From Candidatus Saccharimonadota bacterium (GTDB lineage Bacteria; Patescibacteriota; Saccharimonadia; Saccharimonadales; Saccharimonadaceae): DNA of 13,337 nucleotides. The position numbers and the translations under genes were made by a program. The notes beneath the pieces were generated by a model. That model had not been told where the DNA came from. It searched no databases and worked only from the letters and a program-made list of their open reading frames with translations. Shown here piece after piece: positions 9,708 to 13,337 of the stretch. Location: positions 1 to 13,337 of the forward strand of contig JAUNAO010000016.1 in NCBI GenBank assembly GCA_030527565.1. The letters are read 5' to 3'. Every line of letters begins with the position of its first letter. The first letter of the stretch is position 1.

Positions 9708-10679
9708 TTATACATCAATCCCGTAACTATAGTGCATAAATTCTTCGTAACTTAATGCCTGTCCTTCTGGCATTTTCGTTTCTTGTTTGTATTTTTCATA
9801 TTCTGCTTGGAACTTCCCCGGATTTCGCCCATACATCTCCGAAATCAAACCCCCCGCAAACAACCAAGGATTATTCACCCTTCTCATATCGTACCCCTCC
9901 GGCGCCTGTCCATCTTTAAACCAACTCGGATCATCCATCGGAGATTTATCTTTATAAGATTTTCTAAACTCCGCCAACATCTTCGCAAGATCTCTCCCAC
10001 CAAAATCTAAACTATCGACGTCATATCCCTTTTCTATCAACATCTTCGTTGTCGCTAGAAATTGGAATCTCCGATCTACGCCATCTTCCACCTTCCCCCG
10101 AATCGCCAAATCACATTGATTTGAGAGCATATCATGTACTAACTTGTCATCCGACATCACAAGGTCAACTTTCTTCGCCAGCATATCTTTATCCCTCGTC
10201 GTCCCCATCATAATATCTTCATAAACGACTTCGCGGTCCCCCTCGCGGATAGTTTCTGGCGTCAAATCCCCTGACCTAATTAACTCCGCCGGCTCTTTGC
10301 CGTCGATATTTGGTCTCCCCGCCCCCTCAATAAAACCCTCATTATAGTAATGTTCCGAGGATTTGTAACCAGGATCATTCGAAATGCCTTGCCCAACCAT
10401 CACCGGCCGATCTCCATAATCATTATAAAAACTTTCCGCATCCGCATACCCCGAACCCTGATAGCCATAGCCCGGATACTCACTCCTCTCCGTCGGATCG
10501 GGCGTAGTCTCTCGAGCTACCGCCACCTGCTGGCTTCCCAAATGATTATAATAATGTTCCGAATTTACATATCCATCCCCCTGAAACCCCGTCCCCCGAA
10601 ACGGCACTTCGGATAAAGAATCCCATCCACTACTTCCAGATGCTTCTTTATCACCAATCAACTTCTCTGCATTACTCAT
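9708..10679 (-). CDS. Unrecognised repeat protein under a poly-G promoter
   Basis: I do not recognise this 323-residue protein. It has no signal peptide and no membrane segment, so it is soluble and cytoplasmic unless exported by another route. The N-terminal third is Gly-, Tyr- and Ser-rich and carries three copies of a motif of the form GYxxxExYYN: GYVNSEHYYN (36-45), GYADAESFYN (77-86) and GYKSSEHYYN (104-113). Copies one and two are preceded by GFQG or GYQG and are 41 residues apart; the second and third are 27 apart. From about residue 130 to the end the sequence is charged and looks mainly helical, with no motif I can name. The start has AGGA six bases upstream. Its promoter (10704-10734) has a 14-G spacer, so expression is probably phase-variable. 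It converges on nusA and diverges from the fic gene. A surface or host-interaction role would fit phase variation but is only a guess. Confidence 0.85.
   Translation of the reverse strand: MSNAEKLIGDKEASGSSGWDSLSEVPFRGTGFQGDGYVNSEHYYNHLGSQQVAVARETTPDPTERSEYPGYGYQGSGYADAESFYNDYGDRPVMVGQGISNDPGYKSSEHYYNEGFIEGAGRPNIDGKEPAELIRSGDLTPETIREGDREVVYEDIMMGTTRDKDMLAKKVDLVMSDDKLVHDMLSNQCDLAIRGKVEDGVDRRFQFLATTKMLIEKGYDVDSLDFGGRDLAKMLAEFRKSYKDKSPMDDPSWFKDGQAPEGYDMRRVNNPWLFAGGLISEMYGRNPGKFQAEYEKYKQETKMPEGQALSYEEFMHYSYGIDV
10335..10592 (-). repeat. Region encoding three GYxxxExYYN repeats
   Basis: Codons for residues 30-115 of the preceding protein. The three imperfect units share Gly-Tyr, a Glu four residues on, and aromatic-Tyr-Asn at the end. 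The nucleotide sequences have drifted, so this is an old protein-level repeat, not a recent DNA duplication. Confidence 0.7.
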
Positions 10680-10703
10680 GGTTTATCCTTTTTACTTGCT
10701 TTT

Positions 10704-10734
10704 ATTCTACCCCCCCCCCCCCCGAGTTTGTCAA
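10704..10734 (-). promoter_or_regulatory. Phase-variable promoter with G14 spacer (copy A)
   Basis: Minus-strand TTGACA (10729-10734) is a perfect -35 and TAGAAT (10704-10709) a one-mismatch -10. The 19-nt spacer is AACTC followed by 14 G. A spacer of 17 would need 12 G, so changes in tract length should switch promoter strength. It drives the 323-residue repeat protein, through a leader that contains AAAAAGGA. Confidence 0.85.
10710..10723 (-). repeat. Homopolymer tract of 14 G in a promoter spacer
   Basis: Fourteen consecutive C on the plus strand. It lies exactly against the -10 box. Such tracts mutate by slipped-strand mispairing, and the reported length may be a population consensus. 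Confidence 0.95.
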
Positions 10735-11603: not shown

Positions 11604-11981
11604 ATGCAAAATCAACCAATACAAACCATAAAATCTTCAACAACAGCCGGCCTCCTCGGACTCTTCCTCGGCCCGCTCGGTGTCCATAATTTCTACCTTA
11701 ACCAAATCGGCAAAGGCATCGCTCATCTAATTTTAACCGTTCTCCCTTTCGTAGTCCTTTTCATCGCCACAACCATCGGCTCAACTTCAGATTTAAGTAT
11801 TTCAGAAGGTCAAGCCCTCGGTTGGGGATGTGTCTTTCTGGTTTGGATTTCCCTAGGAGTTAATTTCATGTGGGCTTTTATCGAATCGATTATTATCTTC
11901 GCACAAGGCGACGCCGGTCTCGCCCGGAAAGGCTACCGAGTCGCCGGATCAATCCCACCTTACCAACCACCAATTCTGTAA
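11604..11981 (+). CDS. TM2 domain membrane protein
   Basis: A 125-residue membrane protein. The TM2 signature is clear in AGLLGLFLGPLGVHNFYL (15-32) followed by NQIGKGIAHL, with two further hydrophobic segments (about 43-58 and 73-98). The proline-rich C-terminus (GSIPPYQPPIL) is probably cytoplasmic or peripheral. Function of the family in bacteria is not defined. I chose the ATG at 11604 because AGGA lies six bases before it; the in-frame ATG at 11598 begins inside that Shine-Dalgarno and would add two residues. It lies 16 nt after the fic stop, so the two genes form an operon. No clear terminator follows. Confidence 0.9.
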   Translation: MQNQPIQTIKSSTTAGLLGLFLGPLGVHNFYLNQIGKGIAHLILTVLPFVVLFIATTIGSTSDLSISEGQALGWGCVFLVWISLGVNFMWAFIESIIIFAQGDAGLARKGYRVAGSIPPYQPPIL

Positions 11982-12011
11982 ATATGAACACAACAAGAAA
12001 TCTAGGCGCCC
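11978..12011. repeat. 34-nt repeat, copy 1
   Basis: Matches 13304-13337 at 29 of 34 positions and ends in CTAGGCGCCC. It overlaps the last codon of the TM2 gene. Copy 2 runs to the window edge, so the full repeat could be longer. Confidence 0.75.
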
Positions 12012-12020
12012 GCGGCACCC
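12004..12020 (-). ncRNA. Hairpin leader behind an orphan promoter
   Basis: Minus-strand GGGTGCC-GCG-GGCGCCT forms a seven-pair stem that needs G-U pairs on this strand but would have C-A mismatches on the plus strand, so the folded RNA is more likely minus-strand. It begins just after the predicted start of the promoter at 12031-12059 and is followed by TAGATTTCTTG. It may be a weak terminator ending a very short RNA, or the head of an RNA antisense to the TM2 gene. Confidence 0.35.
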
Positions 12021-12030
12021 TACTCTCCTC

Positions 12031-12059
12031 ATTCTATCACACTTATGCTATTTTGTCAA
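12031..12059 (-). promoter_or_regulatory. Consensus promoter with no obvious gene (B)
   Basis: Minus-strand TTGACA (12054-12059), 17 nt, TAGAAT (12031-12036), with TG one base before the -10. This is the best-matched TTGACA/TAGAAT promoter here. The convincing coding sequence ahead of it (TM2) is on the other strand. Confidence 0.7.
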
Positions 12060-12746: not shown

Positions 12747-12773
12747 ATTCTATCTCCTCTCCGAACCTGTCAA
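12747..12773 (-). promoter_or_regulatory. Degenerate relative of the poly-G promoters (C)
   Basis: Minus-strand TTGACA (12768-12773) and TAGAAT (12747-12752) with a 15-nt spacer GGTTCGGAGAGGAGA. The upstream GATAGGTT(A/G)AGCGG, the GTTGACA and the downstream TAGAATAAAA all match copy A at 10704-10734, but the G run is broken by A. The 15-nt spacing suggests a weak, no longer switching promoter. Confidence 0.65.
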
Positions 12774-12800: not shown

Positions 12801-13271
12801 TTAAGCAGCCACTCCGAAAATTAAAGCCAACCCACCACCGAAAAATATAATAGGGTTTAGCAAAATCAAGAGAATCCATTGAATTATATAGTTTATTTTT
12901 AGCCACCCTCTCGTCATATTTAATACATACTTCCCATACATTTTTTTGTATTTTCGTATCCTATCAATTGCAAGAGCAGTTATCGGAATCGTCAAAAATA
13001 ATATTAGCGGATAGACTAAAATTATATCACCTGCCCCAGGTTCTTTAATCCGACCGCTAAAAAAGAAACCGACAATATAAATTTGAAAAGAAATCGCCAA
13101 CCCAGCAAAAAGCAATTCTAGAACCGTTGCCGCCAACATACTAGAAAGATCCAACTTTCCTTGGGCTGCCATTTTTTCTCTATACCTTCTCTCCCATCTA
13201 ATAACCCATATAAGCAACAGTGGCGATAGCAAAAGAAAAATACCTATCAATCGTGCCATTATGATTTCCAT
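12801..13271 (-). CDS. Unrecognised four-segment membrane protein under a poly-G promoter
   Basis: A 156-residue protein I cannot assign. Four hydrophobic segments are visible (about 6-24, 47-71, 82-103 and 127-153), with basic loops after the first (RWERRYREK, 25-33) and third (DRIRKYKKMYGK, 103-114) that place those loops in the cytoplasm. The ATG at 13271 begins six bases after the -10 box of the G14 promoter, so the mRNA is probably leaderless; a second ATG four codons on would give a start at MARLIG. There is no Shine-Dalgarno for either. Because its promoter contains the same G14 spacer as the 323-residue repeat protein, expression is probably phase-variable. Confidence 0.82.
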   Translation of the reverse strand: MEIIMARLIGIFLLLSPLLLIWVIRWERRYREKMAAQGKLDLSSMLAATVLELLFAGLAISFQIYIVGFFFSGRIKEPGAGDIILVYPLILFLTIPITALAIDRIRKYKKMYGKYVLNMTRGWLKINYIIQWILLILLNPIIFFGGGLALIFGVAA

Positions 13272-13277
13272 GCTTTT

Positions 13278-13308
13278 ATTCTACCCCCCCCCCCCCCGAA
13301 ATTGTCAA
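13278..13308 (-). promoter_or_regulatory. Phase-variable promoter with G14 spacer (copy D)
   Basis: Minus-strand TTGACA (13303-13308), then ATTTC and 14 G as a 19-nt spacer, then TAGAAT (13278-13283), AAAAGC and the ATG. From the C before the G run through AAAAGC it is identical to copy A. Confidence 0.85.
13284..13297 (-). repeat. Homopolymer tract of 14 G in a promoter spacer
   Basis: Fourteen consecutive C on the plus strand, directly against the -10 box, the same length and position as the tract at 10710-10723. Confidence 0.95.
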
Positions 13309-13337
13309 TATAAGCACAACTAGAAACCTAGGCGCCC
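13304..13337. repeat. 34-nt repeat, copy 2, at window edge
   Basis: Matches 11978-12011 at 29 of 34 positions. It covers the -35 box of promoter copy D and continues to the end of the window, so its true right boundary is unknown. Confidence 0.75.

Follow-up and report, generated by a model that had tools for sequence, protein, structure and literature searches.

Introduction

Slippage at long runs of G is a known phenomenon. In the Bordetella fim type of control the tract lies between the -10 element and an activator site, in a promoter without a good -35 element. In Neisseria porA tracts of 11G, 10G and 9G result in graded expression and deletion of mutS increases switching, as stated in the accessible part of PMC3639595, and Treponema pallidum tp0126 works best at a total spacing of 17 nt according to the available excerpt of PMC7864442. 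Switching of this kind has been described in other bacteria; for Saccharibacteria there is no report in the literature searched, and among the literature matches listed, which cover few subscription papers and preprints, no tract-driven promoter is described for Saccharibacteria or Patescibacteria. Saccharibacteria have very small genomes and live on other bacteria. Here we describe G tracts in promoter spacers of this lineage and argue that porA/tp0126-like phase variation at the level of transcription, by means of a slippage-prone promoter spacer, probably occurs in it.

Results

Promoters with a G14 spacer in the window

The window, i.e. the whole stretch of DNA that was analysed, is one complete contig of 13337 bases from a genome of 594,968 bases in 61 contigs. 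An earlier note on this DNA had described a TTGACA and a TAGAAT 19 nt apart with 14 G between them, and direct reading of the sequence bears this out (Table 1, promoter 1). The spacer (10710-10728) consists of 5 nt after TTGACA and the G14 tract, so that a homopolymer of at least 8 nt lies between the -35 and -10 elements of a sigma-70-type promoter, and the start of a gene on the same strand follows 24 nt downstream. In a window of such composition about 0.0003 runs of at least 14 G or C are expected, and the full promoter pattern, which was observed twice, did not occur in any of 2000 single-base shuffles. A chance origin of the tract promoter is ruled out by these shuffles together with the backwards and C-run controls given below.

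Table 1. Positions of promoter elements and associated coding features in the window
Feature	Position	Strand	Remarks	Basis
-35 element TTGACA, promoter 1	10729-10734	minus		sequence
G14 tract, promoter 1	10710-10723	minus	3' part of spacer, abutting -10	sequence
-10 element TAGAAT, promoter 1	10704-10709	minus		sequence
24-nt stretch, -10 to start codon	10680-10703	minus	AAGGA 10686-10690, likely ribosome site	sequence, inference
ORF of 323-aa Tyr/Gly (YG) repeat protein behind promoter 1	9708-10679	minus	ATG at 10679	
N-terminal motif GWDSLSEVPFRG, YG residues 18-29	10593-10628	minus	common to unrelated genus proteins	
-35 element TTGACA, promoter 2	13303-13308	minus		sequence
G14 tract, promoter 2	13284-13297	minus	19-nt spacer	
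-10 element TAGAAT, promoter 2	13278-13283	minus		
156-aa hydrophobic, membrane-type protein behind promoter 2	12801-13271	minus	no Pfam hit	
Related third promoter TTGACAGGTTC-GGAGAGGAGA-TAGAAT	12747-12773	minus	15-nt purine-rich spacer, no pure G run	

Two further promoters are missing from the earlier note. Promoter 2 (13278-13308, minus strand) also carries a G14 tract, and the 44-nt segments of promoters 1 and 2 are 91% identical. The first ATG of its gene (13271) is located only 6 nt past the -10 element, with a second in-frame ATG at 13259, and the contig ends 29 nt beyond the promoter. The third promoter has the same -10 element and shares an 18-nt upstream segment with promoters 1 and 2; it is possibly a degenerated, locked copy.

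The surroundings contain several other features. The divergent neighbour of the YG gene is a Fic-family gene (PF02661; 10787-11587, plus strand) with a sub-threshold VbhA-like antitoxin stretch, and since its ATG is only 6 nt below an extended -10 element (TGATATAAT) a leaderless mRNA is suggested. A TTGACA-17-TAGAAT promoter (12004-12059, minus strand) leads directly into a GC hairpin (12020-12004), the end of which is part of a 60-nt repeat with two copies that are 72% alike (11952-12011 and 13278-13337, the latter at the contig end). The window also contains ORFs that we take to be NusA-like and ligase-like.

The whole genome contains 12 runs of at least 8 G, six in long reading frames and six in intergenic regions, and all six intergenic runs are located shortly after a TTGAC. 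A relaxed version of the pattern recovered the same six sites, the highest number among 170 genomes of the genus. In one of them (on contig C37) TTGACG and TATTGT are only 9 nt apart, which is too close for a plausible promoter in the assembled form, and an ordinary TTGACA-17-TAAAAT is located between this site and the next gene. The three other sites outside the window precede genes for a TM2 protein, for a secreted-type protein carrying a pectate-lyase-like adhesive domain, and for a protein that has a single hydrophobic stretch. One of the runs in reading frames, a C10 run (position 1583 of L209, contig C23), coincides with a frame break in a membrane-protein gene, where it separates a short start region from a 277-codon membrane-protein frame. 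Because of this position, coding-tract phase variation may also exist in this genome.

Recurrence in the genus, family and phylum

We scanned 174 genomes of the genus for the strict pattern TTGACA-N-G7+-N-TANNNT and inspected all 54 sites, which are distributed over 37 genomes, with 137 genomes lacking a site. Replacing G by C yielded matches in 4/174 genomes, some of which may be real too, and the backwards control gave no match in the genus genomes. The position of the run is highly constant, as it ends 0-1 nt ahead of the -10 hexamer at 51 of the 54 sites, while its length varies from G7 to G19 and the spacer from 12 to 26 nt within this one genus. An ORF starts within 110 nt past the -10 element (3-99 nt) at 51/54 sites; two of the remaining three run off contig ends, and the third (G040:C16) resembles chance. 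In the family the pattern is present in 51/394 genomes and 16/61 genera, own genus counted (backwards control: one match), and in a sample of the phylum in 12/267 genomes, ten of which are outside the class. A search of viral contigs with the promoter of the window gave no match, and the general pattern gave 13 stretches.

Tract length, spacing and mismatch repair

The sample contains one genome per species. Lengths were compared between homologous promoters. Genome G050 has two near-identical promoters with G10 and G14, in which 120 of 127 flank positions are identical; the two copies may be either paralogues or alleles of different strains. Promoter pairs with tracts G11 and G10 (genome G075) and, with a short overlap only, G17 and G16 (genome G040) were found as well, and homologous promoters of genomes G047, G112 and G113 carry tracts G12, G11 and G9. 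Equal lengths occur in the pairs of genomes G156 and G049 (G10/G10 each) and between genomes G075 and G078. Tract length thus changes between homologous promoters with conserved flanks, though not in all pairs.

Loss of two G had been proposed to bring promoter 1 to an optimal 17-nt spacing. The ordinary promoters of the genome agree with this optimum, as 31 of 39 have a 17-nt spacer, 22 of these 31 with TG before the -10 element (the list omits the two tract promoters and may include chance matches), and so does tp0126. The tract promoters of the genus, however, centre on longer spacers: 7/54 are at 17 nt, 8/54 at 18 nt and 14/54, the mode, at 19 nt, giving 22/54 at 18-19 nt. G14 may therefore already be near ON. 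A tendency of poly-dG/poly-dC towards a more compact, A-like form, with less length per base pair than in ordinary DNA, could explain a longer spacing optimum.

Finally, we searched for the MutS_V domain (PF00488) and obtained no match in 60 genus genomes, with 11 of 14 controls being positive. MutS seems to be missing from the lineage, as judged from this one Pfam domain in genomes that are incomplete.

Genes behind the tracts

By a simple hydropathy rule, used in place of a signal-peptide predictor, 33 of the 51 tract genes encode a hydrophobic N-terminus compared to 14 of 64 neighbouring ORFs (Fisher p 4e-6, tract ORFs being counted from 30 codons up and neighbours from 100), and 18 of the 51 do not. 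The protein behind promoter 2 is of the membrane type. We scanned 54 proteins for Pfam domains, i.e. 50 of the 51 tract proteins (L061 left out) and four others of the window's genome. The domains obtained are in part of the adhesin and surface type and include LRR, Listeria-Bacteroides repeats, SpaA, a pectate-lyase-like adhesive domain, a papain-type protease, GNAT, TM2 and T4SS pilin. The T4SS pilin gene (L043 in genome G041, 1030-1467) is located behind a G14 promoter with a 22-nt spacer.

The YG protein, described in the earlier note as a Tyr/Gly-rich repeat protein of unknown function, contains three GYxxSEHYYN-type repeats and has no Pfam or PHROG hit. It also has no hydrophobic N-terminus by the hydropathy rule and is not an evident surface protein. 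No other match to its gene was found in 170 genus or 394 family genomes. Three relatives from protein databases (46-49% identity, without genomic context) resemble it in the C-terminal part and in at least some of the repeats, but not in the first 30 residues. In an AlphaFold model based on 4 sequences (mean pLDDT 58) residues 1-119 are below 50 and probably disordered, and the C-terminal part (about 120-322) is predicted to be helical. None of the 76 matches from a PDB fold search with an E limit of 10 reached 0.001, and the best was at 0.9. A weak ankyrin-like sequence hit (E 0.08) was not trusted.

A shared N-terminal motif

The motif near the N-terminus of the YG protein (Table 1) recurs in other proteins of the genus. 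A profile built from nine tract proteins and searched at E up to 0.5, with weak rows not being trusted, gave 65 rows in 48/170 genus genomes, the nine seeds included. Among the 56 non-seed rows we examined the 22 with a given locus, kept 21 with W[DEQNK] in residues 6-45 and dropped one; the W in these proteins is uninformative, as W[DEQNK] was partly the selection criterion. The residue three positions after W is L, V or I in 21/21, and the later motif positions hold F in 16/20 and G in 16/21. Together with the nine seeds, WDxLxxVPFxG is found on 30 proteins (loci including L230-L251) that fall into 24 unrelated C-terminal groups by BLASTP. Scanning 28 of the motif proteins gave three with GNAT domains and one HopA1-family match (L247, ORF 1501-2544), in which residues 198-279 match the Pfam HopA1 effector family with 24.4 bits (cut-off 22.7). 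Bodies with the motif include an acetyltransferase, the YG protein and a HopA1-like protein, the last of which does not belong to the tract set.

The motif is not tied to the tract as a rule, since none of the 21 non-seed genes has a six-G run in the upstream 110 nt. A reverse profile made from the 21 proteins matched 8/51 tract proteins at E <=0.0014, a test that is partly circular because the 21 came from a profile of tract genes, and 1/65 neighbours, itself the second gene behind a tract; the seed L188 was not recovered. A low-complexity N-terminus followed by or combined with a conserved aromatic box, on bodies that are otherwise unrelated, is suggestive of a tag for docking or export, and WDxLxxVPFxG is a possible sorting tag. 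The accessible part of PMC12857230 reports the T4SS to be essential in a cultured Saccharibacterium, which makes export of the motif proteins to the host cell a possible reading.

Poly-G promoters in other bacterial phyla

A scan across phyla with a pattern that allows spacers of up to 22 nt gave 116 stretches (L062-L177) with 120 sites among the matches listed, which include Lachnospiraceae, Blautia, Treponema, Bacilli, Alphaproteobacteria, Lentisphaerae and Planctomycetia. Of the 120 sites among these matches 58 have a spacer of 18-19 nt and 12 one of 17 nt, and 82 are followed within 120 nt by an ATG ORF of at least 80 codons. Hydrophobic N-termini are encoded by 61 of these 82 tract genes compared to 164 of the 526 remaining ORFs with 120 or more codons on these stretches, or 187 of 624 if comparison ORFs are counted from 80 codons, again among the matches listed. 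When five records from Saccharibacteria, Nomurabacteria and Patescibacteria were removed from the first 80 listed, the ratio was 41/52 to 110/349. The architecture, found before surface-type genes in records of many phyla, is therefore widespread and has probably arisen by convergence.

Discussion

Our data point to the G14 tract as the slippage-prone spacer of a sigma-70-type promoter. Replication would add or remove G's, and these changes would be left uncorrected as the lineage seems to lack MutS. A change in tract length would shift the -10 element relative to the -35 element, giving high, intermediate or low transcription of the gene behind it from cell to cell. Tract length would then vary within one population and alter transcription, and switching might diversify the cell surface, as well as certain other proteins, in an epibiont that faces its bacterial host. 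The idea of a phase-variable promoter put forward in the earlier note gains from the recurrence of the architecture, its strand preference (37 vs 4/174 genomes), the surface-type genes, the differences in length and the lack of a MutS_V match; points against it are the missing signal peptide of the YG protein, the equal tracts of some pairs, the spacer peak at 18-19 nt and the lack of a strict site in 137 of the 174 genus genomes.

Alternatively, the G run might be a fixed structural spacer, e.g. a G-quadruplex or a segment that is stiff or A-form-like, which would keep the strength of the promoter at a constant, weak level and in which length changes would be rare and selected against. This would agree with the identical G14 tracts of the window, the paralogue pairs of equal length and the 18-19 nt mode in distant bacteria (58/120 among the matches listed), which suggests a preferred geometry. 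We nevertheless regard a fixed spacer as unlikely in view of the wide range of tracts and spacers in a single genus, the G10 and G14 tracts in near-identical promoters of genome G050, the missing MutS_V match in the genus genomes searched and the variation of the tprL tract within isolates that is described in the excerpt of PMC7864442.

Exchange of promoter cassettes offers another role for the tract, which would tune recombination rather than spacing, the three promoters of the window being shuffled copies. The 91% likeness of the 44-nt segments before unrelated genes and the 18-nt segment in common with the third promoter are compatible with such shuffling, but the feature that stays constant across genomes is the position of the run relative to the -10 element (51/54), and among the families aligned flank similarity is confined to gene families, which makes recombination a very improbable function. 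Even less credible is that the assembled length results from an error in sequencing or assembly and that the run is short in reality: homopolymers are error-prone, the assembly is a draft in 61 contigs and the contig stops 29 nt past promoter 2, yet an artefact would not pick promoter spacers, one strand or surface genes, and the same architecture is present in 37/174 separate genus genomes and outside the phylum.

If slippage does drive these promoters, a stochastic switch on many surface genes would make cells differ from one another with no need for dedicated regulators, and this would matter for host range and for the escape from host resistance. Transcriptional phase variation may be overlooked in uncultured bacteria, as the occurrence of the same architecture in other phyla suggests, and the shared motif at the N-terminus would open a way to study a possible class of exported proteins. 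A combined scenario, in which a convergent poly-G switch with an optimum of 18-19 nt operates in many phyla and WDxLxxVPFxG is a translocation signal into the host bacterium on proteins some of which are phase-variable, is speculative and in our view doubtful as a whole.

Among the described systems, Bordetella fim, named as a parallel in the earlier note, fits less well than porA and tp0126, as the tract here is preceded by a perfect TTGACA and belongs to a promoter that does have a good -35 element. Neisseria opc resembles the locus in having a promoter homopolymer with length-dependent expression, but its poly-C encompasses the -35 region according to the excerpt of PMC7864442, whereas here the -35 and -10 elements are intact. 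The Gracilibacterium BD1-5 PTD-repeat protein likewise shows local hypervariation in a predicted surface protein of a Patescibacterium; in that case the accessible part of PMC6851277 describes a coding repeat with synonymous variation and no promoter tract. T. pallidum tp0126 and tprL have the poly-G run inside the promoter (PMC7864442, excerpt), the difference being that assembled spacers here centre on 18-19 nt. In Neisseria meningitidis porA, a surface protein gene, poly-G likewise occupies the spacer between -35 and -10, as far as the available text of PMC3639595 goes. However, porA encodes one porin in the outer membrane of a diderm that has MutS, whereas in Saccharibacteria, reduced epibionts in which no match to MutS_V was obtained, the tract belongs to a recurring set of genes.
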